A DNA stretch of 30,098 nt from a virus. Below are positions 838 through 29,023 of the stretch, piece by piece. How positions within the stretch are numbered: position 1 is the first letter of the stretch; each line of letters opens with the position of its first letter. The stretch is taken from positions 1 to 30,098 of IMG/VR virus record IMGVR_UViG_3300042350_002746; one strand, given 5' to 3'. A program made the position numbers and the translations under genes. The notes under the pieces were generated by a model, which was not told the DNA's origin, made no database searches, and worked only from the letters and a program-made list of their open reading frames with translations.

Positions 838-1860
838 TTATTTCCAAATTGGGCTGTTGTCTGGTCCACGAAAATCTTTTTTCCAGTTTTCCTGAACTAA
901 TTTAATTACATCGGCTGGCATGTGGACATATTCTAATTCTGTTGACATTTGACCACCATTCTTATATGACCAATCAAAGAATTTAAGAATTGCACGACCT
1001 GTTAGTGCATCTGCTTGTTGTTTGTGCATAAGAATAAAACTTGCACCTGTTGCTGGCCAAGCATCCTTGCCTGTCTGCCATGTGAGTAACAAATACATGC
1101 CTGGTGCATTCACCCAATCTGCGTTCGCTGCTGCTGCTTTGAATGTTGAATCATCTGGTAATACGAAAACACCATCACGATTCTTTAGCTGTGCATAAGC
1201 AATTTTATTTCTCTTTGCGAAAGCATACTCCACATATCCAAAAGCACCTTTGATACGCTGCACTTGTACAGCAACACCCTCATTACCTTTGCCACCTACG
1301 CCGACTGGCCACTTAACTGCTGTGCCTTCACCGATAGATTTTGCAAACTCAGCATTTGCTTTACCTAAGAAGTTTGTCCAGATAAATGTTGTGCCTGAAC
1401 CATCTGCACGATGAACAACTGTGATTGCTAATGCTGGAAGATTTACACCAGGATTTAAATCAGTAATTGCTTTATCATTCCATTTTGTAATTTTACCAAG
1501 GTGGATATTTGCAATAACTTCTGGTGTCAACTTCAATTGACCTGGCGCAACACCATCAAGGTTGAAAACTGGTACTACACCGCCGATGATTGCTGGAAAT
1601 TGAACAAGACCTTCTTTGTCTAATTCTTCTTTCTTTAATGGCATATCAGATGCACCAAAGTCAACTGTCTTTGCTTTGATTTGTTTGATGCCACCACCTG
1701 AACCGATGGATTGATAGTTTAGACCAATGCCAGTTTGTGCTTTATAAGCCTCAGCCCATTTACTATAGATTGGAAATGGAAAAGTCGCACCAGCGCCAGT
1801 AAGTTCTGCTGCTGATACGACTCCTGTAAACAACATTAATGATACTAAAAACTTCTTCAT
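838..1860 (-). CDS. pstS: Phosphate ABC transporter substrate-binding protein PstS
   Basis: This 340-aa protein is the periplasmic phosphate-binding subunit of the host PstSCAB importer. It has a signal peptide of about 18 residues (MKKFLVSLMLFTGVVSAA), then the PstS phosphate-binding segments: GAGATFPFP at 22-30, SIGSGGG at 51-57, FGASD at 68-72 and RADGSGTTF at 151-159, all matching the ligand loops known in E. coli PstS. Length is normal for the family, so it appears intact. An AGGAG ribosome site lies just before the ATG. No pstC, pstA or pstB is nearby, so the product must work with host permease components. Phage pstS genes are well known in marine T4-like cyanophages. It is followed directly by the porin, which would bring phosphate across the outer membrane. 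The upstream region of 114 bases holds a possible promoter and operator. Confidence 0.95.
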   Translation of the reverse strand: MKKFLVSLMLFTGVVSAAELTGAGATFPFPIYSKWAEAYKAQTGIGLNYQSIGSGGGIKQIKAKTVDFGASDMPLKKEELDKEGLVQFPAIIGGVVPVFNLDGVAPGQLKLTPEVIANIHLGKITKWNDKAITDLNPGVNLPALAITVVHRADGSGTTFIWTNFLGKANAEFAKSIGEGTAVKWPVGVGGKGNEGVAVQVQRIKGAFGYVEYAFAKRNKIAYAQLKNRDGVFVLPDDSTFKAAAANADWVNAPGMYLLLTWQTGKDAWPATGASFILMHKQQADALTGRAILKFFDWSYKNGGQMSTELEYVHMPADVIKLVQENWKKDFRGPDNSPIWK

Positions 1861-13544: not shown

Positions 13545-13552
13545 TATTTATG
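13545..13552 (-). promoter_or_regulatory. T4-type late promoter variant (CATAAATA)
   Basis: CATAAATA on the minus strand matches the T4 late consensus TATAAATA at seven of eight positions. It lies 28 bases upstream of the structural-protein ATG, with an AGGAG site in between, and overlaps the last codons of the preceding modular gene. Confidence 0.5.
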
Positions 13553-14942
13553 TTTTCTGCATATCGCTAGACAATTCGGGGTTTTTTTGAAACTTGTCCG
13601 ATGCCTCTTCTTGTTCTTGCTTTTTACCTTTTGCAGCATCTCTGACGATTTGTGCTTTACGTGACAGAGTTCTTGCTGCTGCACTTGGTTCATCAGTATT
13701 TTCGTTCACGGACTTCCAACCACCACCCATTTCTTTGTATTTCTTTGCAGCCCAACCGTTAGCATATGCTGAAGGATATACATCAAACTTAGACTTTGCT
13801 TGTGCTTTAGCTTGCGCCCACTTCTCAGGTGATGTTGGCACATTCTTTTCTTCAAGTTGTTCAACCTCTTCCTTGACATGGCCATATTTCTTTTTGTACC
13901 AGTCAGGCATACCACTCTTTTGACGGAAGTATCTTACTGTCGCAGAATCATTTGCTTGATCACGATATTTGTTCTCGGATTGTGGACTGTGACCTTTCAT
14001 TGCTTCAGCAGCAGCATGTGCATCTTTAGCAATACCAATCAACTCAGCATTAGACTTTTTATGATAATCATGACCTTCTAATGGATGTCTTTGTGATGGA
14101 CGACCCTCTTCAAGTGTGTCTTCATCCATACGTCCATTCTTTGCAAGTCTTTCTTTACGTCTTTGTGCTGCAAATAACGCACCTTGTGGTTGTTTGTCTT
14201 TACCGTATTTCTTTTTCAAGTATTTGTCCACTTTACGTGCATATTCATCTTTTACTTCTTCAGTCAGTTCACCACGCAAGTAGTTTGCTGCGGTAGAAAT
14301 GTAATCTTCAGCAAGCGTAATCTTTGATTGCACCCATTCTGGCAGATTTGTATTCTCTTCCATCAAATCCATCATGTCTTCAGCATTGAAAACAAGTGAA
14401 CGAAGTTGTGACATTGCCATATCACCTTCATAATCATATTCACGTGGGTCTTTTGCTTCTCTTATCGGTGTTACTACCGTAGGAGATTTATATGGTTTTT
14501 TGACTGGTCCAGACACGAATTTTCCTTTCTGTTGTAATTGCTCATCAATTTCAGCTTCTTCGGAAACTCTTGATGCTTTCATGATGCCACGAATCAAAGG
14601 TGCTTTTAATTGATTGTGTCGTGGCACTGGAATAGAATGCTTTGCTTTTGGATGTTTATATACATCATGACCACCAGACGAACGTGCTAAAGCCCAACCT
14701 GATTTTTTTAAGTGAGCATGAACGTCACGTGTTTTCATACTTGATTCTGGCATCTCATCAAGCATTTCAACATCTTCTTTTCTTAAATCATCAATTTCTT
14801 TCTGCTTTTGTGCAGCAAGTTTTTTGTAATGATCTGGATCAGGCAATCCAGATTTCTTACGCAATTCTTGATGTTTACGATACATTTTTTCAGCCGCCGT
14901 TTCTGGCGGCATCTTAAAGTTGACTTTGATTTTGCCAGGCAT
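13548..14942 (-). CDS. Modular virion-type protein with HicA-like mRNA-interferase domain
   Basis: This is a 464-aa Lys/Glu-rich protein built of modules. Residues 12-50 are a helical PETAAEKMYRKHQELRKK-type segment. Residues 69-126 have the HicA toxin pattern: VHAHLKKSGWALARSSGGHD, VYKHP, then SIPVPRHNQL and IRGIMKAS, with H92 at the place of the HicA catalytic histidine. Residues 165-225 (EYDYEGDMAMSQLRS, LPEWVQSKITLAEDYISTAA) and 365-411 (NVPTSPEKWAQAKAQAKSKF, YPSAYANGWAAKKY) are modules that I recall in marine phage structural proteins. (L/I)-x-E sites separate them: LDE 61-63, IDE 132-134, IRE 160-162, LEE 277-279, LEE 363-365. No HicB antitoxin is seen. Probably a head-associated protein; RNase activity is inference. 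Confidence 0.75.
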   Translation of the reverse strand: MPGKIKVNFKMPPETAAEKMYRKHQELRKKSGLPDPDHYKKLAAQKQKEIDDLRKEDVEMLDEMPESSMKTRDVHAHLKKSGWALARSSGGHDVYKHPKAKHSIPVPRHNQLKAPLIRGIMKASRVSEEAEIDEQLQQKGKFVSGPVKKPYKSPTVVTPIREAKDPREYDYEGDMAMSQLRSLVFNAEDMMDLMEENTNLPEWVQSKITLAEDYISTAANYLRGELTEEVKDEYARKVDKYLKKKYGKDKQPQGALFAAQRRKERLAKNGRMDEDTLEEGRPSQRHPLEGHDYHKKSNAELIGIAKDAHAAAEAMKGHSPQSENKYRDQANDSATVRYFRQKSGMPDWYKKKYGHVKEEVEQLEEKNVPTSPEKWAQAKAQAKSKFDVYPSAYANGWAAKKYKEMGGGWKSVNENTDEPSAAARTLSRKAQIVRDAAKGKKQEQEEASDKFQKNPELSSDMQKT

Positions 14943-14944
14943 GA

Positions 14945-16153
14945 TTAGTCTTTCTTTGCCATCTTGGTTGCAGTTGCATACATTACTGATTTAGCACGTT
15001 CACCATAACGTTGTTTGAAACCAGAAAGACCTTTCTTCATGCCCATTACATAATCTTCTTTCTTTTTGGATTCACCTTTTGTCAGTTCACGCTCATCAAT
15101 TTGCTGAACACTTTCTGGCATTTCTTTTACACCAGTTGTCTTACCTGCTGCAACTTTTGGTTGTTTCTTTTTGCCTTCAAAGCTTGCTTTTTGATCTTCA
15201 AACTCTTTTGTGAATTCATCGTTTGTTGGTTCTTCAACAATTGTTTCAACATATCCATTGATTTTGTCGCCATCAATAACTTGAATAGTTGTGCCGTCAA
15301 TATCCATTTCCTCAGACTCAATTGGTGCCAAAACTTTCAAACCATGCTCATTGTAGAGTTCAAGCATTTCTGTGAATGACAGTTGTTCATTGACACGTGT
15401 TGAACGCTTATAGTTCTGACGAGCCCCATAGCCTTTTGCTTTCTTTTGCATATCATCAGATTCATCTTCATCTTTATAATCACGCTTATGAACAAGACCA
15501 GTTTTAGTTTTTGTTACAGAGCCATGTTCTGTTTTTCCAGCATCCATGCGTTTCTTTGCATCTGCTACAGTTGGAAATGCTTCATCAAGTTCAACTTCTT
15601 CTTTTTTCATTAAAGCTTTCGCTCTTTTCTCTTGAGTTGAATGATACTTAGCTTCAGCATCTTTTGCATAAATTTTTGCAGATTTTTCTTTAGGTACAGG
15701 TACAGTAGTATTGGTGTTTCTAATTTTTTCCATCTTACCTTTAGCCTCAGCACCTTTTTCTTTATGATAGGATGCAATTTGTGGTAATTTGCCTTTTCCA
15801 ACCAATTCATCAAGCTGTTCAACTTCTTCGTTTGTTTTCTTACCATAGTAATTGTCTTTGTAAAGGCGTGATGTTGCTTTACGCAGACCTTTCTCACGAT
15901 TTTTATCATTCAATGATTTCATTACATAACTACTGAGTGCTTTTCTGCCTGCTGGTGTATCACCAACTTCATCAAGTTGTTCAACATCTTCTTTCATACC
16001 TTTTTTAGCACGAAGGAGTTTAAAGTCATGAGCATCAACTTTGCCATTTTTGTTGGCATCAATTTTATGCTGATTACCTTTCAACTGTTCTCCCATAATT
16101 TTAGCTGCTGCTTCTGCTACACCTTTCAGTGCTTTGTCGTTAAAAATTGACAT
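14945..16153 (-). CDS. Modular virion-type protein with EF-hand-like loop and repeated QLDE motifs
   Basis: This 402-aa protein is rich in Lys and Glu and mostly helical or disordered. Residues 32-43 (DANKNGKVDAHD) fit an EF-hand or dockerin calcium loop: D1, N3, N5, G6, D9, D12. Linker motifs VEQLDE (57-62, 111-116), VELDE (187-191) and VQQIDE (349-354) separate modules such as DTPAGRKALSSYVMKSL (65-81) and, at the end, ESKKKEDYVMGMKKGLSG with AKSVMYATATKMAK. These module types recur, as I recall, across marine T4-like phage proteins. It lies 2 bases before the HicA-bearing gene and shares its linker type. Probably packaged or structural; no enzyme domain is recognised. Confidence 0.7.
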   Translation of the reverse strand: MSIFNDKALKGVAEAAAKIMGEQLKGNQHKIDANKNGKVDAHDFKLLRAKKGMKEDVEQLDEVGDTPAGRKALSSYVMKSLNDKNREKGLRKATSRLYKDNYYGKKTNEEVEQLDELVGKGKLPQIASYHKEKGAEAKGKMEKIRNTNTTVPVPKEKSAKIYAKDAEAKYHSTQEKRAKALMKKEEVELDEAFPTVADAKKRMDAGKTEHGSVTKTKTGLVHKRDYKDEDESDDMQKKAKGYGARQNYKRSTRVNEQLSFTEMLELYNEHGLKVLAPIESEEMDIDGTTIQVIDGDKINGYVETIVEEPTNDEFTKEFEDQKASFEGKKKQPKVAAGKTTGVKEMPESVQQIDERELTKGESKKKEDYVMGMKKGLSGFKQRYGERAKSVMYATATKMAKKD

Positions 16154-16168: not shown

Positions 16169-16429
16169 TTAGTTTTTATATGCAATTGATACGGCTCTGA
16201 CATCACTTCCACTATTAACTTGAAGTGTATCCGTTATTTTTTTTTCTATAACTATTTCTGAATTGTTTAACATCGTAAAAGTTCCTATATTTGAACCAAT
16301 ACCATCAGCAATCGTAATTAAATGTTCTTGTGATCCAGTATGCACTAACCTAACAACAACCGCATTATTTACAGTAGTATTTGATGATGCATTTAAAATT
16401 ATTTCATTTGTTAAGACTTTAATCAGCAT
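16169..16429 (-). CDS. Small beta-rich putative structural protein
   Basis: The ATG at 16427-16429 (TAATG overlap with the upstream stop) is preferred over an in-frame GTG four codons earlier. The 86-aa product starts MLIKVLTNEIILNASSNTTV, has beta-strand-like stretches (AVVVRLVHTGSQEHLITIAD, SEIVIEKKITDTLQV) and ends VRAVSIAYKN. I recall similar short proteins (IKVLTNEI...TDTL...VAYKN) among structural genes of marine T4-like phages. It has no cysteine and no signal peptide. Likely a decoration or fibre-accessory protein, inferred from composition and its place among virion-type genes. Confidence 0.65.
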   Translation of the reverse strand: MLIKVLTNEIILNASSNTTVNNAVVVRLVHTGSQEHLITIADGIGSNIGTFTMLNNSEIVIEKKITDTLQVNSGSDVRAVSIAYKN

Positions 16430-17121
16430 TAACAATTCCACTTTCTTAAACTTTTGTTGATGCGTGAATCTGGATCGTTCGCAGTCTTAGCTGATGTTAA
16501 TCTTTTCTTCATGCCGCCCATTCTTGCACAAAATGACTTGCGGCGTTTTGCTGCTTTAGAATCTGGATCAAGTTTGGATGGCTTTGTTGTCACCGCCATT
16601 GATAACTTTGAACCAGGATTAGCACGACGATATGATTCAATGCCTTTACGATTCAAACCACCAGATTCAGATTGACCTTCTTTGCGTGTCCATGCTTCAC
16701 CTTCATCAAGTTCAATTTCTTCTTTTTTTAAATCGGAAGAAGAATGATGTTGTATTGCGTTTGGATAATATGAATTTGTGCCTTTTACATGAACTTCATC
16801 ACCATTTACAAATACAACAGAACCTTTTTTATTGTCCTTAGTTTTCACTGTATCACCAACCCTTATATTGTGAGTTGGTTGTTCAGTTTTATTTCCAGAT
16901 TGTTTTCGTGTAGCCGCATACATACTTGTTGCGGACGTAAATGATGCTTCATTAATATATTCAACTTCTTCTTTCTTCAGCGGCTTGCCTTGTCTGATTC
17001 TTTTGATATCATCATGAACATTCTCTTTGACACAAGAGCCAGGAGAATATGCTTTTTTGCCAGGCACTGATTTATAGCCCGGCCAGCATCTCTCATCTAA
17101 GTGTTGTTTGAACGATTTCAT
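16429..17121 (-). CDS. Modular protein with capsid-targeting-like N-terminus, KOW-like and DUF6321-like modules
   Basis: This 230-aa protein begins MKSFKQHLDE, resembling the T4 internal-protein targeting peptide MKTYQEFIAE and ending in L-D-E. Next come a Cys-containing module (CWPGYKSVPGKKAYSPGSC, 12-30), INE at 56-58, an SH3/KOW-like strand set (VGDTVKTKDNKKGSVVFVNG at 88-107), LDE at 138-140, and a C-terminal module starting WTRKEGQSESGGLNRKG and containing RRKSFCARMGGMKKR and a terminal RKWNC. That last module matches the DUF6321 type as I recall it. The four-base overlap with the upstream 906-aa gene ties them together. Function unknown; packaged head protein is the working idea. Confidence 0.7.
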   Translation of the reverse strand: MKSFKQHLDERCWPGYKSVPGKKAYSPGSCVKENVHDDIKRIRQGKPLKKEEVEYINEASFTSATSMYAATRKQSGNKTEQPTHNIRVGDTVKTKDNKKGSVVFVNGDEVHVKGTNSYYPNAIQHHSSSDLKKEEIELDEGEAWTRKEGQSESGGLNRKGIESYRRANPGSKLSMAVTTKPSKLDPDSKAAKRRKSFCARMGGMKKRLTSAKTANDPDSRINKSLRKWNC

Positions 17122-19838
17122 ACGTAGTTTCTCTTTTTGAATGTTGTAAGTGAGATACCTTTTTTCTTCAACTCATCTTCTTTCTGATCACCGATAGATG
17201 CTGTTGTTTCATCGCCAGTAAGTTCACTGATATTCTTTGGCACAACTTGTGTTGCTTTGCCCTTCTTACTTAGCTTCTCACCCATATCACGTGCAGGTGA
17301 TTCACCAGCTGCTGCCATAGAAATGCCGGGCTCTATGCCTTTGTCGATTGATTCTTCGATTTTTTTCTGGAAGTTTTCTTTAATGGTGCCGAGGCTGATT
17401 GTTCTTCGTTCTTCGGCAACGGGTTTGTCGAGGGCTGGTCGTTCTTTTCTTCCAGTACCGGTTCTAACTTTTCCAAGTTCTTTTGCTGACGGGGTGGACA
17501 TATTCTGTCCATAAACTGCTTCAATTGCAGAATTATCTGGTGAATGAATTTCATTTAAATCCTCTCTAAGTTTGACTGCATATTTGCTGCCGACTTTTAC
17601 TACGGTGCCGTTTTTTTGGTGTGCTTCTTTTGCTGCTGTACCACGAATATAAAACAATCTTGGATTGCCATTTTTATCCGACAAAAGTTTTTGTTTCTTT
17701 GTCTCTGTTTCTGTTTCTTCAAATTGCTTACCAATTAACTTTGTGCCAGAAACGTGTTGAATCATTTTCCATGCTTCTTTGTGATTCTTGTTTGCAAGGT
17801 GTTCTTTGAATTTTTTCTTTTGATCTGGTGTAGCTTTCTGATGAAACTTCATGACTTCCATCATGCCGATGTTGCCCTCATATGCAGCTTCACTGATCTT
17901 GCCCTTACCATAATTTGACACGTTGATTGGCTCACCTTTGCGTTCTGGATTTGGATCATGTTTGCGTTTTGCTGCAACGGCTGATGCACGTTCTTTCTTG
18001 GACAGTGATGCTCGTTTTTCGTTTGACATACATTTTGGTTTTGGTTCACCTGGTTCTCTAGCACAAGGACCAATTGCCTCACCTTTGCTATTGATGCGTT
18101 TCCAACCACCTTCAGGATCACTTTTACTAAACCATTTACGCAAGTCTTCTTTGATCATGCCTCTGCCTAGTGTCAGTAAATTGTATGCTCCAGCATCAGA
18201 CATTGTGTTTACTTCTTCGTGTTCAGTCATCTCTTCTTCGTCTGTTTTCAACAAACGAATTGTGCGTGTGACCTCTTCTACTGTATCGCCAGTAATTGAA
18301 ACTGTAACTGCTTCGTTAATGAATTCGTCAAATGCTTCATTAACCTTTGACATTTTCTTTTGATGCGTTTCAACAGTCTTGTTTATTTTTTCTACTGGTA
18401 TTAAACTACCATGAACAGAACGATGTGTTACTTTACCATCTTTACCATAACGACCGAAACCATAGTATTCAAGCCCCATCGTATTCATATCATCATGTGT
18501 GCCTGCATTTGCATGTGGCTTCATATCACGACGAATTGGCGCAGTATCTTTCTTACTTAACTCTGTAGCAATCCAACCTTTTGCATCATCATTCTTTGGT
18601 GGCTTACTAACAAATTTTTGCATGTTCTTAAAAATACCATCTAATTCTTTTGTCTTTGCTTCTACAACTTCTGGTGCGGCTGTTCGTAAGTCTTCTGAGT
18701 TATCAAATTCTACATAGTTGTCACGAAACAACTTACCAAACATTGGTCGTGCTGCTTGTACCGATTGCCATTTCTCTTTACGAATGTTTTCTGGTACTGT
18801 ACGACCACCACGTTGACCGCGTTCAATGTTTCTTTCTTTTGAAACTTCATCGGCGGTGTTGACCATGACCATAGATGTTTCATAACCCATCTTTTCAAGC
18901 ATCTCTTTGATCTTAGCATATTTTTCTGGATCATCACCAGTGCCATTGATGATAAGACCATTACGACCATGAAGTGCTAAACGCTGACGTAACTCAGTAA
19001 CATTCTTTGCACGTTTACGAACTGCGTTACGCTGTGCTTCTTCATCATCAGGCATTCGTTTATCAAGACCTTCTTTGTCCATCAGATACTCAAGTGCCTT
19101 GTCTGAATTGATTTCTGTCAGACCATGACCATCCAGTGTTTTGCTCAACACATAGTCTTTACCTGAACCTGGACCACCGCCTAGAAACACTGCTTTGAAA
19201 ATACCTTTGTCATGAACACCTTCACGAAGTATTTCTTCATGAAGTCTCATACCTTTGCGAACATCGTTATACATTTGTTTGACTTGAGCAACTGACATCG
19301 TTGATGGCGCACCTTTTTTAAAGGTGTCAAAATCTCCTTCTTTTGCGGCTTCACGCATTTTAGATGCAGAGATACCTTCTGCACCTTCTGCATCAGGATC
19401 ACGTTCACCAGCGGATTCTACACCAATATATTTGAAGTTGAAACGTGCGCCTTTATGTGTACCATTATATTTTTGAAGTAATTTTGCATATTCACCAGCA
19501 CGATCAGAACCAGCAACCATGTGAAGATGAGTTACGCCCTGTTTGTATAGTTTTTCTGCATGATCAAAGAATGTAGGTGCTTCTTTGGATGCTGCTATGA
19601 AGTTTGTATCGGGAAATGCACGTTTGGCGTGTTTGATTTTCTGATCTACCGTGAGGGGATTTTTCTTTGCATCCTGTGAGTGTGACAGGACAATGTGATG
19701 TGAGCCACCAACCTTAGTGGCAAGTTTTTTGACTGTTTTGACTACTTTTTCGTGACCGTTTGTAATTGGATTCATGCGCCCAAATGCTAGGACAGCATGT
19801 TTCTCTTTCTGTTCACGTAGAAAATCTCTAAATTTCAT
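17118..19838 (-). CDS. Large modular protein: NadR-like nucleotidyltransferase + P-loop kinase + DUF modules
   Basis: This 906-aa protein starts MKFRDFLRE (capsid-targeting-like, ending LRE). Residues 14-165 form a cytidylyltransferase-like domain: AFGRMNPITNGHE with TNGH at 26-29 for HxGH, and ISASKMR at 156-162. After a second LRE (204-206) comes a P-loop kinase with GGPGSGKD at 221-228 (Asp where Ser/Thr is usual) up to about 400. Then INE 507-509, a DUF5872-like segment at about 556-640 (WKRINSKGEAIGPCAR, LSKKERASAVAAKRK), ISE 648-650, an AYEGNIGMMEVMKFHQKAT module and a C-terminus SLTTFKKRNYV. NMNAT plus kinase is the NadR layout, so NAD salvage is possible. A GAGGGA site precedes the ATG. 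Confidence 0.8.
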   Translation of the reverse strand: MKFRDFLREQKEKHAVLAFGRMNPITNGHEKVVKTVKKLATKVGGSHHIVLSHSQDAKKNPLTVDQKIKHAKRAFPDTNFIAASKEAPTFFDHAEKLYKQGVTHLHMVAGSDRAGEYAKLLQKYNGTHKGARFNFKYIGVESAGERDPDAEGAEGISASKMREAAKEGDFDTFKKGAPSTMSVAQVKQMYNDVRKGMRLHEEILREGVHDKGIFKAVFLGGGPGSGKDYVLSKTLDGHGLTEINSDKALEYLMDKEGLDKRMPDDEEAQRNAVRKRAKNVTELRQRLALHGRNGLIINGTGDDPEKYAKIKEMLEKMGYETSMVMVNTADEVSKERNIERGQRGGRTVPENIRKEKWQSVQAARPMFGKLFRDNYVEFDNSEDLRTAAPEVVEAKTKELDGIFKNMQKFVSKPPKNDDAKGWIATELSKKDTAPIRRDMKPHANAGTHDDMNTMGLEYYGFGRYGKDGKVTHRSVHGSLIPVEKINKTVETHQKKMSKVNEAFDEFINEAVTVSITGDTVEEVTRTIRLLKTDEEEMTEHEEVNTMSDAGAYNLLTLGRGMIKEDLRKWFSKSDPEGGWKRINSKGEAIGPCAREPGEPKPKCMSNEKRASLSKKERASAVAAKRKHDPNPERKGEPINVSNYGKGKISEAAYEGNIGMMEVMKFHQKATPDQKKKFKEHLANKNHKEAWKMIQHVSGTKLIGKQFEETETETKKQKLLSDKNGNPRLFYIRGTAAKEAHQKNGTVVKVGSKYAVKLREDLNEIHSPDNSAIEAVYGQNMSTPSAKELGKVRTGTGRKERPALDKPVAEERRTISLGTIKENFQKKIEESIDKGIEPGISMAAAGESPARDMGEKLSKKGKATQVVPKNISELTGDETTASIGDQKEDELKKKGISLTTFKKRNYV

Positions 19839-19884: not shown

Positions 19885-20588
19885 TAAACTTCTAGCGTGT
19901 TTGTGGTGGCTACGATACCCTGACAGTGAATTGTATCAAGTTCAATCAATAAGTCTTGACCCACATTGAAGAAATGTGCATGTTCGGTGTCAACGCCAGC
20001 ATCTTGGATAACACCTAAATTTCTTCTGCACATGATCATATAGTCATCAATCAGGCTTGGACAAAAAGAAAACAATCTTGTGATGAGAAGGTCAGTAAAA
20101 AACTCTGCTCTTTCACCTTGGATCCAGGTTGGCATTCTTTTCTTGAACACGTATTTACCCCAATGATCGTGTTCGTATTGATTAAAGTCGCTCAATAAAT
20201 CGGTTCTTGCAGATAATTTAAAGATTCTATTTACAGAATGCATCATTTGCATCATGCTTGGCTCTTGTTTGAGTAGCATCATGGTCTTGAGCATGAGTGC
20301 ATTTTCAGCCTCACTCTTTTTATGTCGTGCGGCAAATCCACTGATCACTTCATCCGTAGAAAAATCTGCTACAAAATCAACAAAGTTTGAGATTGCACGA
20401 ATCTTTTCTTCTTCAACTTTTTTTGGTGAGCCGTCAACAAAAAGCACAATTGATTCTGGTATAGATTCTCTCAGTGTTTTGAGTCCTTGAATAGTTTGTT
20501 CAAGTCTCTCTTCAGGTGTAATGACACCCAAAGTTGCATTCAATGCCGATGTTACGATGAATAATTTATTGTTAGGTATCAGTGCCAT
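19881..20588 (-). CDS. Unknown protein at the end of the sugar cluster (glycosyltransferase-like?)
   Basis: This 235-aa soluble protein starts MALIPNNKLFIVTSALNATL, followed by TPEERLEQTIQGLKTLRESI and IVLFVDGSPKK, a beta-alpha-beta arrangement like the nucleotide-binding half of GT-A enzymes. In the middle is NRIFKLSARTDLLSDFNQYE, a segment I associate with uncharacterised viral glycosyltransferase-like proteins. A clear DxD is not visible. It overlaps the SDR gene by 10 bases and is the last gene of the sugar run. A sugar-transfer role is inferred from fold hints and context only. Confidence 0.55.
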   Translation of the reverse strand: MALIPNNKLFIVTSALNATLGVITPEERLEQTIQGLKTLRESIPESIVLFVDGSPKKVEEEKIRAISNFVDFVADFSTDEVISGFAARHKKSEAENALMLKTMMLLKQEPSMMQMMHSVNRIFKLSARTDLLSDFNQYEHDHWGKYVFKKRMPTWIQGERAEFFTDLLITRLFSFCPSLIDDYMIMCRRNLGVIQDAGVDTEHAHFFNVGQDLLIELDTIHCQGIVATTNTLEVY

Positions 20589-21250
20589 TCAAAGTCCGAA
20601 AATAATTTAATTGTTTTATATGTTGCTTTTGAATTTAATACATGAATCATGGTGTCTGTGACTTCTTTTGTGTTCATCATTTTATCTTTTGATGGGTGCT
20701 TGTCTTGCATTGTTGTTTTAATGCCACCAGGATGAATACTTGTCACACGAACTCCATTCATTTGTGTGCTTAGTTCTGCACCTAAAGCACCAGCAAATGC
20801 AGTGATGGCATGTTTAGATGCAGAGTAGACTGCTTCCCATTCCATCTCGTTAAGACCCGCAACAGAGTTGATGAAGAAAATATCACTACCTTTGTTCATC
20901 AATTTAAGTGCTTCTTTGGTCACATACATTGTGCCCTTGACATTTAAATCAATAATTTTGTCTATTTTTTCAATTGTGAAATAACTTTTGAAAAGACCCC
21001 ATTCATATACACCAGCATTATTCACAAGCACATCAATGTATGTGCCGATTCTTTTGAACGCTTCTTCAACTTGATCCGATTTTGAAATATCACATTCTAC
21101 CCACTGAAATGTATCCGGTGCAGAAAATAGTTTTACTGGTGGTTTTGTGCGTGAAAGACCATACACAAAATAACCTTCGTCAATCAGTCTGTCTGCAATA
21201 TCATGCCCAAGACCGTAACTGCAACCTGTTACTACAGCCACTTTACGCAT
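20579..21250 (-). CDS. Short-chain dehydrogenase/reductase
   Basis: This 223-aa NAD(P)-dependent oxidoreductase has the SDR set: TGCSYGLG at 8-15 for cofactor binding, NNAG at 77-80, catalytic S129, and Y142-x3-K146 (YSASK). The ATG at 21248-21250 (TGATG junction with the cyclase stop, GGAG 5 bases before) is preferred to the in-frame GTG one codon upstream, which is too close to the ribosome site. Lying directly after a sugar-phosphate cyclase and before a sugar-transfer-type gene, it probably reduces or oxidises a sugar or cyclitol intermediate. Substrate cannot be read from sequence. Confidence 0.85.
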   Translation of the reverse strand: MRKVAVVTGCSYGLGHDIADRLIDEGYFVYGLSRTKPPVKLFSAPDTFQWVECDISKSDQVEEAFKRIGTYIDVLVNNAGVYEWGLFKSYFTIEKIDKIIDLNVKGTMYVTKEALKLMNKGSDIFFINSVAGLNEMEWEAVYSASKHAITAFAGALGAELSTQMNGVRVTSIHPGGIKTTMQDKHPSKDKMMNTKEVTDTMIHVLNSKATYKTIKLFSDFEWH

Positions 21251-22386
21251 CACATCTCCTCAAAAACATCAATCGCAAGTTTCATTTCATCTTCAGTGAC
21301 ATCATTCACAATCTTATAGTTACCAATTGCAATAGGCAGTGGTGCATATTGATTACCATTACGATGCTTCGTTGCATCACGCAGACTCTCCAACAAATAC
21401 TTCATGTTGGTAAAATCTTTGTGAAATGTTTTTAGTTTCAATCTCTTTGCAACGTCAAAGATTCGTTTAAGTTGAACGGTGTCAATGTAGCCACGAATAA
21501 ATGAAATGCACGAACTATACAAACAATCTAATGCTACTGCTTCACCGTGCAACAACTCTGGTATATTAGCCATCTCAATTACAGGACTGAATGTGTGACC
21601 AAAATCTACGCAACGATCTAGTCGTTTTTCCCATAGATTTGGTCCTAATTCCGCAATCATGTCTGTAATAGCAAGATTGATTACACGAACTGGCACTGCA
21701 CCATACTGAAACTTTTCATCTATCAATATTTCTGCATTCTCTTCTAACAGATGAAATAGTTCTGGTGACTTGATGACTGCAAGTTTGAATATCTCTGCAA
21801 TGCCATTGACAATCTCACGTTCACTTTGCGTATTGATAAACTTTTTATCAATGTATGTTGCAAGTGGTGGATAGTATGCACCAATACGATTGCGTCTGCC
21901 TAGATGATTAACACCAACTTTAGAGCCTACAGAAGCATCAACGATGGCAAGAAGTGTTGTGGGAATTTTAACGTAGGGAATTCCACGACGGTATATGCTA
22001 CAAGCAAAGCCAACAATGTCCAGCAGAACACCTCCGCCAATTGCGATAATAGGTTCACGGCGCAACACTCCATATTGTTCAAAAAAGTCCAAAATACGAT
22101 CAACATTTTTCCAATTCTTGTTTTCTTCTTTACAGTCTACGCAAAGTATTTTACAACTTAACTTGACCGCGCCAAAGTATGCTGCAATACTGTCTTTGTA
22201 TAAATCATGCACCTCAGAATCAATGACAATAATTCTGCGATCACTATTTGTGATGTTTACAATATCTTGATTGCTAGGACTGAAGATATCAGCAGAATAA
22301 GTTAGTTTGAATTCTACTGGTAGTTCTGTTTTCACTGACCAAGTTCTTTTAAACTTGTCGTAATCCATCATAAAGTCTAAACTCAT
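21250..22386 (-). CDS. Sugar-phosphate cyclase (dehydroquinate synthase superfamily, EEVS-like)
   Basis: This 378-aa enzyme keeps the superfamily NAD and metal sites: GGGVLLDIVGF at 117-127, IPTTLLAIVDASVGSKVGVN at 141-160, and metal ligands E198 (NGIAEIFKLAV), H264 (DFGHTFSP) and H280 (LLHGEAVALD). Several segments are closer to 2-epi-5-epi-valiolone synthase (sedoheptulose-7-phosphate cyclase) patterns than to shikimate-pathway AroB: VLLDIVGFA, YRRGIPYVK, NRIGAYYPP and the C-terminal ATKHRNGNQYAPLPIAIG. No other aromatic-pathway gene is present, whereas kinase, nucleotidyltransferase and SDR genes are adjacent. A cyclitol product is therefore favoured, but AroB-like or other cyclase activity is not excluded. 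Overlaps the kinase gene by 4 bases. Confidence 0.8.
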   Translation of the reverse strand: MSLDFMMDYDKFKRTWSVKTELPVEFKLTYSADIFSPSNQDIVNITNSDRRIIVIDSEVHDLYKDSIAAYFGAVKLSCKILCVDCKEENKNWKNVDRILDFFEQYGVLRREPIIAIGGGVLLDIVGFACSIYRRGIPYVKIPTTLLAIVDASVGSKVGVNHLGRRNRIGAYYPPLATYIDKKFINTQSEREIVNGIAEIFKLAVIKSPELFHLLEENAEILIDEKFQYGAVPVRVINLAITDMIAELGPNLWEKRLDRCVDFGHTFSPVIEMANIPELLHGEAVALDCLYSSCISFIRGYIDTVQLKRIFDVAKRLKLKTFHKDFTNMKYLLESLRDATKHRNGNQYAPLPIAIGNYKIVNDVTEDEMKLAIDVFEEM

Positions 22387-23336
22387 CTCATTACCTTACT
22401 AAGCAAATCACATGCATGAACATAAAAATATTTTGCTTTATTGATATCGCCAGCAATTAACTTGAATGGCAGCATACGAATAAACTGTGATGCTTCTAGT
22501 ATATCTATGAGTTTCATTTTGTCTTCTGGCAACTCAGAAATAAAGTGCTTATTAAATACATCAAAGTTTTCTGTACCTCTGTTTGGATTGAATAAGTCAA
22601 TCCCCGTTACACGAACATCACGATCATTAATATATCCATAGTGACTACGTGAACATTGTAGAACTTGTGCATAGTCAAGATACTTAGTGTTCCACATACT
22701 TTCATCATATACATCAATGAAAACTACACGATCTTCTTCAAACGAATACATGATATTCTCAAGTGTTGGATTACCATGTATATTACATTCTTCATCGTTT
22801 TCTAGTTCATTGAAGTAGTTATGAAGATCATACAAATAGCCGCCAATGCCAATTACAATATTGTTGTCTAGACCATATGAACCACGATAAAAGAATTCTT
22901 CAAATGAAGGTAACTTAACGGCATCTTCAATCTTTTGTTGTATTTCTTCTTCAAAATATAAACTTGGTGCGCCGGGAATGAGTTCTTTTTTGATTGAATG
23001 TAGTGTGTTCAAACCTTTCCATACTGCTTGACTCATTCTAAAGATTTGTTCTTCACTCAGTATATCTTTAGTGAGAATAGTTTTGATATCACGAAAGCCT
23101 TCAAGATATTTCAAATCAAACCATGCAGTCTTAGCATTAGAACCAACATTTACAACTTTAGGAAATAAACCAGGATAAAGTGTATTGTATTCCTGTAGCT
23201 TCTTCAATTGAGAATACCAACGAACAAAACCATACTCACGATTCTCTACACGTGAAATTTCCTTACGCACAATTTTCTCATCTGGTATCAGATAAGTTTT
23301 ACTAAGTGAACCGCCTTTTAATGAAATAGTTTTCAT
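22383..23336 (-). CDS. APH-fold sugar/cyclitol kinase-like protein, HGN in place of HGD
   Basis: This 317-aa protein has the aminoglycoside-phosphotransferase/choline-kinase layout: an N-lobe with a possible ATP lysine K25 (KIVRKE), a hinge at about 70-80, and a C-lobe with IHGNPTLEN (186-194) and VVFIDVYDES (204-213). In active family members the catalytic loop reads HGD; here it is H187-G188-N189, with codon AAT at 22770-22772. N194 and D208 (metal ligands) are kept. It could still act, perhaps with D211 or E192 helping, or be a binding protein. It overlaps both neighbours by 4 bases and lies between nucleotidyltransferase and cyclase. Confidence 0.7.
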   Translation of the reverse strand: MKTISLKGGSLSKTYLIPDEKIVRKEISRVENREYGFVRWYSQLKKLQEYNTLYPGLFPKVVNVGSNAKTAWFDLKYLEGFRDIKTILTKDILSEEQIFRMSQAVWKGLNTLHSIKKELIPGAPSLYFEEEIQQKIEDAVKLPSFEEFFYRGSYGLDNNIVIGIGGYLYDLHNYFNELENDEECNIHGNPTLENIMYSFEEDRVVFIDVYDESMWNTKYLDYAQVLQCSRSHYGYINDRDVRVTGIDLFNPNRGTENFDVFNKHFISELPEDKMKLIDILEASQFIRMLPFKLIAGDINKAKYFYVHACDLLSKVMR

Positions 23337-24055
23337 TTTGCATCCAATGTTTGCCTTGCTATCTCTATGCCGTATTCTTGTGGACTGCCCAATACAATAG
23401 TCTCTTGGTTGTTACCAAGCGGATTCATGAATACTTGTTTGTTAGATTCTATCATACTTTGAATCACATTTGCAATATACAATTCACCATCAGTTTGAAT
23501 TAATTTACTGTAGTATTCTAGATATAGATGTCCTGTTAGAAAGCCATAAAAACCTGATGATGCATACGGTGAAATTTGTTTCTTTTCTACGATTTCTGTG
23601 ATGAGGTTTTCATACGCACGAACATATGAATACTTCGGTGAGTTACCCACAAACACATCAATATATGCATCATATTTTGCAGTTAAGTCATCGGCAATAA
23701 AGTCTACACGACGACCCTTGATGATCGTGTCTGCATTATGAATGAACGTTGGTAAATGTTTATTATTGAGTAGTTCAATACCGATTGCTGCTGTGTGTGC
23801 TTGACCCTTTGTATCACCAATGTAGAGAATATTGCTGTCATTCCAACCTAGCGGTTTGATTGCTTCCACAAGTTGATCTTTGAAATAAACATCTCTCTTG
23901 TTTGCTACAAGAATAAGTTGCGTAACCCAACCAAGGTTCTTTAGAATTTCATAAATGATTGTCTTGTCATTCCATGGCAAAAGATATTTGGGTATATCAA
24001 AGCCCACATCGTGAAAACGTGTGTTATAACCTGCCATGCAAATTATCAGATTCAT
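23333..24055 (-). CDS. Sugar nucleotidyltransferase (NTP_transferase family)
   Basis: The ATG at 24053-24055, in an ATGA overlap with the upstream stop, is preferred over one three codons upstream because the protein then starts directly with the Rossmann strand MNLIICMAGYNTRFHDVGF. The 240-aa product has the NTP-binding G9-x-N-T-R-F loop, the conserved lysine K23 in IPKYLLPW, and the metal aspartate D109 in HNADT. These mark enzymes that join NTP and a sugar-1-phosphate to give an NDP-sugar. The kinase immediately downstream could supply the phosphate. The last part (ETIVLGSPQEYGIE) is also typical of the family. Confidence 0.85.
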   Translation of the reverse strand: MNLIICMAGYNTRFHDVGFDIPKYLLPWNDKTIIYEILKNLGWVTQLILVANKRDVYFKDQLVEAIKPLGWNDSNILYIGDTKGQAHTAAIGIELLNNKHLPTFIHNADTIIKGRRVDFIADDLTAKYDAYIDVFVGNSPKYSYVRAYENLITEIVEKKQISPYASSGFYGFLTGHLYLEYYSKLIQTDGELYIANVIQSMIESNKQVFMNPLGNNQETIVLGSPQEYGIEIARQTLDAK

Positions 24056-24765
24056 TTTAGCCATTCTTCCATGTCTTCACGTAGCAATGAGTGCCACGTG
24101 CCGTTGTATTCACCTGGTGGAAACGGATGATTGATATCACAATAGACAAGATTCTCACCAACAAGTCCTTGTTTCTTCCAGTTTGCACTCATAAAATCTT
24201 CCATCATATACTGCACACCAGAATCATAAAATTCATCAATGTGATTATATGCATCGGCATATTTGTTCATATTTTCCGATGAGGAGAATGCAAACTGATC
24301 ATTACCAAAGTCCCGATCAGGTGTCACACGACAGTTTGGTATATACAATTTGTTAGGATTTAAGGTGTCAAATGTTATACGTGTGTTGATCGCAAAATCA
24401 AATCGTGAACGAATAACCCAATCAAATTTCATCTCAAAGTATTTTTCATATTCATACTTTGTTTTGATACACTCTCTTATTGCATACAACTGAGCATATG
24501 TTGACATGCGACCATCTTTTACTTTCCAGTTTGGTGATGGTGGTGGCGTGTTTGTGTATTTTGATAGGTCTACAGTTGGATTCGGTGATGTAATAAAACT
24601 GTATGCATTATATTTTTTTGAGATTTCTCTCATCTTTTCTGCTGGCATTTCCCACGAATGCAGAAATACAGTCACATCATTGCCACTGATAATATTTTTA
24701 TAATGGTACTCGTAACCTTTTTCCCACATTCGTGGTTGACCAGAAATACACAGTGCTATTCTCAT
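24052..24765 (-). CDS. Putative glycosyltransferase-like protein
   Basis: This 237-aa soluble protein begins MRIALCISGQPRMWEKGYEY and contains VTVFLHSWEM, YAQLYAIREC and the segment FDWVIRSRFDFAI, with an R-x-R-x-D arrangement that I recall from capsule and LPS-type glycosyltransferase-like proteins of phages and bacteria. The region DFGNDQFAFSSSENMNKYAD resembles the acceptor side of such enzymes. No membrane segment. It overlaps both neighbours by 4 bases within the sugar cluster. Activity and sugar are not known. Confidence 0.65.
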   Translation of the reverse strand: MRIALCISGQPRMWEKGYEYHYKNIISGNDVTVFLHSWEMPAEKMREISKKYNAYSFITSPNPTVDLSKYTNTPPPSPNWKVKDGRMSTYAQLYAIRECIKTKYEYEKYFEMKFDWVIRSRFDFAINTRITFDTLNPNKLYIPNCRVTPDRDFGNDQFAFSSSENMNKYADAYNHIDEFYDSGVQYMMEDFMSANWKKQGLVGENLVYCDINHPFPPGEYNGTWHSLLREDMEEWLK

Positions 24766-25439
24766 AGTTCGCGTCCGATGTTTGCCAAATTATCTGTAAT
24801 ACCAAACGGCTTCAGTTGTTCTTTTTCCATTACAACCATACTGTTGTAGAATGATACTGAATAAAGATTTCTATATGCTTCTAGTGCTTCATCAGAGATT
24901 GGTGAACCTTGAAAGTGCTGTTGATTCACAATATCACAAACTCTTTTTGAATGCTCAACGAAAGTTCCCGCACCTCTGAATGAACCACCCCAATGATGTG
25001 GCCAATAACTTGTATGTGTATCTTCACAAATATAAACGCCACCTTCTTTGATGTGTGAGAATACTTTGTTGACTGTGGTGATTTGATGATTCATGATATG
25101 TGAACCATCGTCAATTACAATATCAAACTTATCTTGTGTTGGTAAAAATTGATCCCAAAATACAGAATCACCTTGATCACCAATTACGATAAGTGCATCG
25201 CCATCGTATTTGTATTCTAGAGATTTGGGTTCAACATCTAAACCAATAACTGTGGTGCCCTCACCAAAGTATTTCAACCACAGTTCAATAGAACCACCAC
25301 CAAGAATTCCAATCTCAAGAATTCGTGGCTTTTTACCCACAAATTTACTCAGATGTCGTTCATACACATCAAAGTAGCCTGACCATTTGGTGGATGGTTT
25401 TTCTAATTGCCAAAACAACTCTTTAATTTTATTTGTCAT
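24762..25439 (-). CDS. Class I SAM-dependent methyltransferase
   Basis: The ATG at 25437-25439 with a GAGG site 6 bases upstream is preferred over an in-frame TTG four codons earlier. The 225-aa product has SAM motif I ILEIGILGGGS at 40-50, an acidic residue at the end of the next strand (D68 in VIGLDVE), and FDIVIDDGSHIMNHQ at 105-119, as in sugar O-methyltransferases of antibiotic and surface-glycan pathways. It lies between two glycosyltransferase-like genes, so a sugar hydroxyl is the likely target. DNA or protein methylation is less likely because no target-recognition domain is seen. Confidence 0.85.
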   Translation of the reverse strand: MTNKIKELFWQLEKPSTKWSGYFDVYERHLSKFVGKKPRILEIGILGGGSIELWLKYFGEGTTVIGLDVEPKSLEYKYDGDALIVIGDQGDSVFWDQFLPTQDKFDIVIDDGSHIMNHQITTVNKVFSHIKEGGVYICEDTHTSYWPHHWGGSFRGAGTFVEHSKRVCDIVNQQHFQGSPISDEALEAYRNLYSVSFYNSMVVMEKEQLKPFGITDNLANIGREL

Positions 25440-26271
25440 ATTTTGCCTCAATCACTTTCTTCCATTCTGGCACACGATCATACTGATGTACAATGGTATA
25501 CTCCATTCCTGTTGATGTTACAACCTTGTCACCATCTAATTTCGGTGATGGTTCAAGTAAGTAAGGCCTGAAGGAATTGATTTTACTTGGATCAGCAGTT
25601 GTACCTAATTGACATGCCCAACCATCTTCTGACTTGGTATACATTGATGATTTGAGATATGGATGTCTTGAAATCATTACGTTAAATACCGCTTGATCAA
25701 CAATGGGAATTGGACGATTAATACAATTCAAAAACAACTGAAGTGTTAAATCTCTCATCGCATGACCGCGACCAGCAAGAACACCTACATTGAAAATTGT
25801 ATTGTTCTTAAAGTCTTCGTAGATGCCCTGACCATAACATTCTGTAATGTTTTGTCTTCCCCAGGGTTCATCTTTGTACTTAATACTTTCTGAAGAAAAT
25901 ACTAAATCTTCATGTCCTTCTGGTAAATTCTCTTCCAACCATTGTACAGGATTTTTTTGAAAGATCACATCTTTCACATCAGTTGTAATTACGTAACGAT
26001 AGTCATTATCTTTGAGTAATTTGTAAATGTGAATGAAGCGTTCTACGTGTACCATCAATTGTGATTGATGTACCAAGTTGCCTTGATTATCTTGATTGAA
26101 TGCAATAATTGAGAAGCCTGCGTCAGTGACTTTTTGTACCGTATCTCTGTCGCAGTTCATAAGAATCAGAACTTTGTCACCCTCAAAGCCTGATTGATTG
26201 ATTGAATTAATCCAATATTTTAATTTTGACCAATCATAGTTGGTTGAACACCCCACAATACAATCTTTCAT
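25429..26271 (-). CDS. Putative GT-A-type glycosyltransferase
   Basis: This 280-aa protein shows a GT-A-like core: an N-terminal strand CIVGCSTNYDWSKLKYWINS, VLILMNC, then YVITTDVKDVIFQ at 93-105 with D98 and D101 in the position of the metal-binding DxD motif, followed by IFNVGVLAGRG and a DQAVFNVMI segment resembling the acceptor-side motifs of family 8-type enzymes. No membrane helix. It is the first gene of the sugar run, with a GGAGA site, and its end overlaps the methyltransferase by 11 bases. It probably transfers a sugar from the activated form made downstream, which is inference. Confidence 0.7.
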   Translation of the reverse strand: MKDCIVGCSTNYDWSKLKYWINSINQSGFEGDKVLILMNCDRDTVQKVTDAGFSIIAFNQDNQGNLVHQSQLMVHVERFIHIYKLLKDNDYRYVITTDVKDVIFQKNPVQWLEENLPEGHEDLVFSSESIKYKDEPWGRQNITECYGQGIYEDFKNNTIFNVGVLAGRGHAMRDLTLQLFLNCINRPIPIVDQAVFNVMISRHPYLKSSMYTKSEDGWACQLGTTADPSKINSFRPYLLEPSPKLDGDKVVTSTGMEYTIVHQYDRVPEWKKVIEAKYDK

Positions 26272-27530: not shown

Positions 27531-27803
27531 TTAACCTCTAGTTAGAGTGAGTATCTTTTGCATTTGCTTTTCAATGATTGATCCACGGTTAGGCCAGTGA
27601 ATGTATGGTTGATTTGCAGTTTTATATAGATTCGTTAAAAATGGCATGATGATTTTTTCCACTTGTTGAAGTCTTGCTTTATATTCTTCAACTGTTTCAT
27701 CCTTCTCCGCAATAACTGCCTGATATTCTACTTCATCAACTGCGCTAAAACCAAAATCATCGTCTGCATATTCTGCTAAAATTTTATTGATATCGTATGT
27801 CAT
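27531..27803 (-). CDS. Small conserved phage protein (90 aa)
   Basis: The ATG at 27801-27803 gives the usual ATGA overlap with the upstream stop; another in-frame ATG lies three codons upstream at 27812. The product begins MTYDINKILAEYADDDFGFS, has an acidic helical middle (EYKARLQQVEKIIMPFLTNL) and ends with QPYIHWPNRGSIIEKQMQKI, a segment that I recall in a short protein widely conserved in T4-like cyanophages. No membrane or catalytic motif. Function unknown. Confidence 0.75.
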   Translation of the reverse strand: MTYDINKILAEYADDDFGFSAVDEVEYQAVIAEKDETVEEYKARLQQVEKIIMPFLTNLYKTANQPYIHWPNRGSIIEKQMQKILTLTRG

Positions 27804-29023
27804 TTGTCCCATGCCTTTTGTGCTGTAAAATTCTTGTGACTAAATTCTAGTCTGTCTACCAGTTTTAATGCTTTACCTACCTGATCAACAGCAACAAATC
27901 CTTCTGGTGCTGTAATCTTGAATCCATCATCCGTGCGAACAAATGTGCCTATGCTTTTGATTGTCTCAAGTTTGCGAATGATCATCAACTTAGCGTCAAC
28001 AATCAGATTCATCAGATCAAATATTTGTTTCAGTTGAATTGCATTTGAACGGTAGAAACGCATCACTTCATTTTTTTCTTTGATGCGTTTTTGTTTTGTA
28101 TCTTCTTTCTTTGCTGCAAGTATTTCTTTATTGAGTTTTGCTTCAACATAATTCATAAGTTCCTGTGTATGAACTCTGGTATCAGCAATCTTTTTACCTT
28201 CACGAACTTTTGTGTTATTGAAGGTTTTGATTTGTGTGAGATAAGTTTCTGATGCAGCAATACGATTCAGTGTCAATGCAGGTATTGATTGAAATACACG
28301 ACCCGCATTAGACAGAATTGATGTAATTGCGGCTGTTTCTTCTGCGGTAAATGTTGCCGTGCCAGATGCATCAGTAAATGAAGCATCACGAAACCAAACA
28401 TCTTTTGTTGGTTTTAAATGACCAATATCAATGTTGAAGGATGCTTTCATTGTCTCTAATGTTTTACCCGAATATGATGTGTGAAATACTACACCAACTT
28501 GTGCAGCAAGCATCGTCTGTGCTAATTTAGATTTAACTGGCACTGCATACACAATTGTGTTTGGTTGAAAAATAATATACTCTTCACCATCAATGGTTTC
28601 TTTTTTGATGTCGCCTTTTGAAAACATCATATCACCTTGCAACACGCCTTTGATACCCAACTTAGGTAAGAATGCAAGCGCAAGTTTGAGTTTTTCATTT
28701 AAACCACCACTCGGATGATTTTCATCAATGTCTTCATCAGTATAATTCAATTTTGCATTTTTTGCAAATACCGATTTGGTGCCAACGAAAAATTTATCGT
28801 TTTCTGGATTTGTGCCGGCAAAGATAGCAGGCGCACCATCCCATTTTGTAGTCACATTTACTTTTGAGCCTGAATGACCGGCAAGCATATTACGCAAAGA
28901 ACGCAGAAACTCAATTGCTTCACGTGCGCCAGATACACCAGCGTTCAACACATTGTCTTCAAGATGTTCTAGATGAACATTCTTGCCTTCTTTACTTTCT
29001 TTTAGATAATCCATGAATTTCAT
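27800..29023 (-). CDS. Putative nucleotidyltransferase (ligase-like KxDG motif) with capsid-targeting-like N-terminus
   Basis: This 407-aa protein starts MKFMDYLKES, with L-K-E at 7-9. Residues 57-69 (VTTKWDGAPAIFA) contain K60-W-D-G63, the motif I of the covalent nucleotidyltransferase (DNA/RNA ligase, capping) superfamily. Following segments fit the order of later motifs: FVGTKSVFA, LQGDMMF (128-134) and VYAVPVKSK (158-166, K-x-K). The second half (about 250-400) is charged and helical. I recall this family (a DUF in marine T4-like phages) as lacking experimental work. Ligase activity is inference; the motif order supports it. Overlaps both neighbours by 4 bases. Confidence 0.7.
   Translation of the reverse strand: MKFMDYLKESKEGKNVHLEHLEDNVLNAGVSGAREAIEFLRSLRNMLAGHSGSKVNVTTKWDGAPAIFAGTNPENDKFFVGTKSVFAKNAKLNYTDEDIDENHPSGGLNEKLKLALAFLPKLGIKGVLQGDMMFSKGDIKKETIDGEEYIIFQPNTIVYAVPVKSKLAQTMLAAQVGVVFHTSYSGKTLETMKASFNIDIGHLKPTKDVWFRDASFTDASGTATFTAEETAAITSILSNAGRVFQSIPALTLNRIAASETYLTQIKTFNNTKVREGKKIADTRVHTQELMNYVEAKLNKEILAAKKEDTKQKRIKEKNEVMRFYRSNAIQLKQIFDLMNLIVDAKLMIIRKLETIKSIGTFVRTDDGFKITAPEGFVAVDQVGKALKLVDRLEFSHKNFTAQKAWDK

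Follow-up and report, generated by a model that had tools for sequence, protein, structure and literature searches.

The 30,098-nucleotide viral sequence analyzed here (IMG/VR record IMGVR_UViG_3300042350_002746, positions 1 to 30,098; hereafter the window) encodes on its minus strand, at 13548..14942, a 464-amino-acid (aa) protein that contains a domain of the HicA toxin family. HicA is a bacterial toxin that cuts RNA and is ordinarily restrained by a partner antitoxin. We describe this domain, the exchangeable cassettes among which it lies and the genes beside it, and propose that the protein is a cargo polyprotein packaged in a T4-type phage head. A first-pass annotation, made from the sequence alone, had placed a HicA-like RNase domain at residues 69-126 (14565..14738, minus strand). 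This position, the motifs quoted for it and the numbering of its histidine as residue 92 were all confirmed.

The HicA domain

The Pfam family PF07927 (HicA_toxin) covers residues 72-123 of the 464-aa protein with an E value of 9.5e-10 and a score of 38.9 bits (curated cut-off 27), and PHROG 353, labeled 'toxin', also matches the protein (E 1.1e-11). A profile of 19 cassette sequences recovers solved HicA chains in the PDB, namely 4c26 (E 1.5e-4) and 1whz (E 1.8e-4). Pentatricopeptide matches in a first PDB search contained no single aligned stretch that was significant and were taken as repeat artefacts. Structural comparison with HicA had been suggested as a check by the first-pass annotation. 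Modeled with AlphaFold2 (pLDDT 82), the cassette adopts a helix-strand-strand-strand-helix order, the double-stranded-RNA-binding-like fold. Its first seven PDB matches by Foldseek are without exception HicA structures (probability 0.99-1.00); the best E is 1.1e-3, so that none is under 0.001.

In Burkholderia pseudomallei HicA, G22 and H24 are required for toxicity (PMC3969222). Aligned via the G-x-H turn, their counterparts in the 464-aa protein are G90 and H92, the latter encoded at 14667..14669 (minus strand) and occupying the position of the HicA active-site histidine. Across the alignment of the 19 sequences, G90, G91 and H92 do not vary. Loss of the histidine in close homologues, which the first-pass annotation had named as evidence against a HicA assignment, did not occur: GGH is retained in 26/26 polyprotein relatives. 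Among 25 distinct cassettes the mean nonsynonymous divergence (dN) is 0.126 and the mean synonymous divergence (dS) 1.02, giving a dN/dS of 0.12, and the H92 codon alternates between CAC and CAT while the histidine stays fixed. The invariance of G90 and H92, the low dN/dS and the synonymous H92 codons together indicate that the domain, with its active-site residues, has been kept under strong purifying selection. Sequence, fold and residues all place it in the HicA family; profile, fold and conservation rule out a chance likeness. No bacterial relative of the cassette was found in a scan of genomic contigs. Small stand-alone HicA-like open reading frames (ORFs) occur in other viruses, at L066:2977-3213, L035:3938-4198 and L036:3938-4198; the last two are weak matches, in cyanophages QB2 and S-M1.

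The hicA sequence is not a small gene of its own, since the cassette lies within the 464-aa ORF and likewise within a longer ORF in 26 relatives. The first-pass annotation had reported no HicB antitoxin gene nearby, and indeed the HicB families PF15919 and PF05534 have no match in the window and none above cut-off in the larger relatives searched. A HicB-like frame in the large relative G001 is below cut-off, contains three stops and is far from the cassette. An ordinary hicAB module is ruled out by the failure to find HicB in these sequences, and the HicA domain of the 464-aa protein is not part of a hicAB system.

A mosaic of cassettes with motif seams

We searched the cassette twice against viral contigs, obtaining 25 and 30 loci, and two other modules of the protein gave at least 80 loci each. 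Compared side by side, the relatives' proteins are blocks parted by a repeated motif, for example EEVEQLDE, EEVELQE or EETEIDE, and between the motifs the blocks are gained, lost or reordered. In one relative (L017) an NVPTNP block directly follows HicA. In another (L128) the HicA cassette sits instead in a cargo protein of the DUF6321 family, between EEVEVLDE and EEIEIDE.

Within the window, the cassette is preceded by EDVEMLDE (residues 56-63, 14754..14777, minus strand) and followed by EEAEIDE (residues 128-134, 14541..14561, minus strand), so that the flanking LDE (61-63) and IDE (132-134) noticed in the first-pass annotation are both present. Further along the protein come a DYEGDMA module common to cyanophages S-WAM2 and S-SM2 and pelagiphage HTVC008M (residues 160-226, 14265..14465, minus strand) and an RPSQRHPLEG module preceded by L-E-E and found in many viral contigs (residues 280-357, 13872..14105, minus strand). 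The motif scan then gives EEVEQLEE (residues 358-365, 13848..13871, minus strand), and the next module is NVPTSPE (residues 366-414, 13701..13847, minus strand); residues 361-411 are 72.5% identical to a cyanophage S-BM3 protein. The boundary motif delimits exchangeable cassettes in three neighboring genes of the window.

Breakpoints of homology coincide with this motif. High-identity local alignments end on it at their right side in 350/1244 cases (68 expected) and at their left side in 260/1086 (62 expected); with each sequence context counted once, 246/926 right-side ends lie on the motif against 47 expected. Breakpoints on the motif are thus about four to five times commoner than expected, an enrichment that comes from the second method tried and from counts that are not phylogenetically independent. 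The first junction test, based on global alignment, gave no signal (5/343 blocks against 3.3 expected) and was replaced, after its result, by ungapped local alignment ends, as its gap placement was judged unreliable. Because of the non-independent counts and the earlier method without signal, we rely on the ratio and the visible architectures and not on a P value. The 464-aa protein is a mosaic of exchangeable cassettes with motif seams.

The boundary motif and the gp21 cleavage signal

The T4 prohead protease gp21 cuts after L/I-X-E (PMC9026906), and the boundary motif terminates in [L/I]-x-E, matching this signal. Both motifs flanking the HicA cassette are therefore predicted prohead-protease sites. 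The site 5' of the cassette ends in L-x-E in 26/26 relatives; the 3' site is an exact I-x-E or L-x-E in 18/26 and V-x-E in 2/26.

A gp21-type protease (E 1.5e-36 and 1.8e-35) is present in two large relatives, 133 and 172 kb long, in which gp21, gp22 and gp23 were identified by PHROGs. Nine shorter relative contigs showed no gp21, as expected of fragments, and the window was not searched for it. Motif-bearing ORFs number 7/177 and 6/204 in the two large relatives, compared with 1.65 and 1.9 expected from shuffled sequences. The clear motifs are in the HicA polyprotein, its upstream neighbor and the one or two genes that immediately precede gp21, as well as, in G001 only, the DUF6321 protein; the remaining motif ORFs are weak and their numbers near chance expectation. 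The genes just upstream of gp21 occupy the position of T4 core genes 67 and 68. Profiles gave no identification for them; their position and motif mark them as putative core proteins. In contig L033 two overlapping genes directly upstream of gp21 (L033:1438-2097 and L033:2066-2527) carry EEVELEE and EEIEVDE and have little or no family match. They are candidate divergent prohead core proteins.

Neighboring genes

Near the HicA gene, on the same strand, lie three further putative cargo genes. The 402-aa product of the first (14945..16153, minus strand) contains three boundary motifs, EDVEQLDE, EEVEQLDE and EEVELDE. The second (16429..17121, minus strand) is a DUF6321 gene (PF19846, E 5.2e-17) with two boundary motifs, the family whose L128 member carries the HicA cassette. 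Its product has a capsid-targeting-like start, MKSFKQHLDE, and another neighbor starts MKFRDFLREQ. By profile matches, the third (17118..19838, minus strand) encodes a 906-aa protein with a cytidylyltransferase, then a Zeta-toxin/AAA_33-like kinase, then cargo modules; its kinase part matches Pfam Zeta_toxin (E 1.5e-13) and AAA_33. The cytidylyltransferase and the kinase, fused here, are separate genes in pelagiphage HTVC008M.

Relatives of these neighbors have been found in virions. Cytidylyltransferases were detected in virions of cyanophage S-SM1 (PMC3037559), S-SCSM1 virions contain an NMNAT-like protein (PMC9602691), and S-CREM2 virions also contain such a cytidylyltransferase (PMC10665884). 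The S-SCSM1 protein QFG06285.1, whose record label is 'virion protein', has the DUF6321 module in common with the gene at 16429-17121. Modules of the window's cargo genes also co-occur in single cyanophage proteins of the T4-GC119 family.

Elsewhere in the window, a DUF6267 protein at 27800-29023 (minus strand; E 7.3e-116) has the capsid-targeting-like start MKFMDYLKES and is perhaps a further head protein. A PstS-like phosphate-binding protein is encoded at 838-1860 (minus strand; PBP_like_2, E 3.1e-36), and beside it positions 1-828 may hold a fragment of an outer-membrane porin, recognized by eye only, which suggests phosphate uptake genes. Sugar-type genes form a cluster at 20579-26271 (minus strand), among them those for a dehydroquinate-synthase-like enzyme and a nucleotidyltransferase; they perhaps serve surface sugar modification.

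Discussion

We propose that the 464-aa protein is a T4-type cargo polyprotein packaged in the head and that gp21 frees from it a HicA piece, which is probably delivered as an RNase effector; we give this explanation about an even chance. Homology and the motif lend good support to the predicted packaging and gp21 cleavage of the protein. The 464-aa precursor would be made in the infected cell and enter the prohead core, where gp21 would cleave it at the [L/I]-x-E seams between cassettes. The fragments, HicA included, could then remain in the head and be injected with the DNA, and HicA, arriving without a HicB antitoxin, would cut host RNA early in infection. Embedding in the precursor until prohead closure may keep HicA harmless to the producing cell, and, being an RNase, such a cargo would spare the packaged DNA. 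That the precursor keeps HicA silent, that HicA is injected and that it acts as an RNase in the host are steps that we only infer. A fuller version describes a virion-delivered toxin-antitoxin RNase made as a zymogen, silent in the precursor, freed by gp21 in the closed capsid and injected without its antitoxin, with the cleavage seams doubling as recombination seams. As a whole we regard it as tentative and rather less likely to be correct.

Several observations weigh against the proposal. The 464-aa protein starts MPGKIKVNFK, with no obvious capsid-targeting N-terminus. Virion detection concerns relatives of the neighboring cargo only; the first-pass description of a virion-type protein stands insofar as homology and motif mark the protein as cargo, while its presence in virions is presumed from these. 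The full-length model of the protein has a low confidence (pLDDT 50). Pfam recognizes no domain other than HicA in the scanned polyproteins, which leaves the idea that the other cassettes are effectors unsupported, and for the HicA members of this group toxicity and RNase activity are themselves something we infer. The first-pass annotation had also suggested that cleavage would free a compact HicA-sized peptide. The constant 5' site agrees with this, whereas the 3' site is absent nearby in 6/26 relatives, and release of such a peptide is therefore not conserved throughout the lineage.

It is possible that the domain is packaged and is not a toxin. The HicA fold could serve as a small basic RNA- or DNA-binding head piece, for instance in the core of the prohead or in condensing DNA, with no RNase action on the host. 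HicA has a double-stranded-RNA-binding-like fold with a positively charged surface (PMC3969222), residues 64-126 are basic (about 13 Lys/Arg against 3 Asp/Glu), and our evidence is stronger for head packaging than for the rest of the proposal. However, binding alone needs no active-site G90 and H92, yet both are invariant while nearby surface positions vary, and we consider this explanation unlikely, if not strongly so. The same conservation bears on a role in counter-defense, in which a delivered HicA-like domain would bind host HicB-type antitoxins or disturb toxin-antitoxin or other RNA-based defense: here too mere binding does not need conserved active-site residues. In favor of such a role, those injected T4 internal proteins whose targets are known inhibit restriction enzymes (PMC12373910), T4 Ip1-3 acting against type IV restriction, and HicA domains have been proposed to function in anti-phage defense (PMC10865869). 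Against it, titration of HicB would release the host's own toxin; we find this role improbable.

Alternatively, the proteins might never enter the virion and work in the infected cell, the motif being a mere linker that promotes recombination of modules. Short in-frame repeats of similar DNA might suffice for cassettes to be exchanged even if they are not protease sites, and the virion data cover relatives of the neighboring cargo, not the 464-aa protein itself. But the motif fits the signal cut by gp21, its occurrences cluster in cargo genes and in two genes beside gp21, and relatives of genes in the cluster have been detected in virions, leaving this alternative little weight, only slightly more than counter-defense. 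Finally, free HicA could be translated from an internal start at Met64 or Met69 and not arise by proteolysis. A methionine follows the boundary in 26/26 polyprotein cassettes, and T4 gene 21 possesses an internal start (PMC9026906). Since neither Met64 nor Met69 has a clear ribosome-binding sequence before it in the window (duplex energies -1.5 and -2.7, whereas several neighboring starts reach -6.6 to -7.4), this route is very improbable. Ribosome-binding values are likewise weak in 25/26 relatives. Several genuine-looking starts are weak too, so that the comparison of ribosome-binding strength is not conclusive.

The proposed cargo polyprotein resembles several known systems in part. The HicA of type II hicAB modules (B. 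pseudomallei, Escherichia coli, Streptococcus pneumoniae) shares its family, fold and G-x-H toxicity residues with the window's domain, which differs in being one cassette of a 464-aa polyprotein for which HicB was not found. A catalogue of HicA domains lists 14 gene contexts, and virion cargo is not among them in the part consulted (PMC10865869). The literature searched, supplementary tables excluded, yielded no earlier description of HicA carried as virion cargo. Alt and IPI-IPIII, the internal head proteins of T4, are processed by gp21; they are packaged within the core of the prohead and later injected (PMC9026906, PMC12373910), and Ip1-3 are injected anti-restriction proteins (PMC12373910). 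Like the window's cargo they belong to T4-type phage and have [L/I]-x-E boundary sites. In contrast, each has one N-terminal targeting peptide, where the window's polyprotein has many seams and many cassettes, one of them with a toxin-antitoxin RNase fold.

The closest concept is that of the polyvalent proteins, which are mosaic, multidomain and thought to be packaged and injected (PMC5512222), with Zeta-toxin-like kinases in both cases. Processing by a zincin-like peptidase, not gp21, has been proposed for them, HicA goes unmentioned in the main text of that study, and they are reported to be scarce in cyanobacteria (PMC5512222). Their hallmark is disparate domains in one protein; the polyproteins scanned show HicA only, while the 906-aa neighbor joins two enzyme domains. 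MuF polymorphic toxins also carry toxin domains on phage head proteins, with delivery into bacteria proposed. They differ in being portal-associated, in belonging to temperate phages and in having a C-terminal toxin, usually with a small gene downstream that may confer immunity, and HicA is unmentioned in the main text describing them (PMC5576092). Pfam scans of the window and of the relatives' polyproteins found no MuF family. The T4-GC119 proteins of S-SM1, S-SM2 and S-BM3 have modules in common with the window's cargo genes of 464, 402, 230 and 906 aa, but the three examined contain no HicA and few boundary motifs, unlike the window's polyprotein.

If the proposal is correct, a toxin-antitoxin RNase would have been recruited into phage head cargo without its antitoxin, and proteolytic head maturation would double as the switch that activates HicA. 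Unannotated proteins related to those of cyanophages and pelagiphages would moreover be explained as swappable cargo polyproteins with readable cut sites, and cargo modules could therefore be listed from sequence alone.
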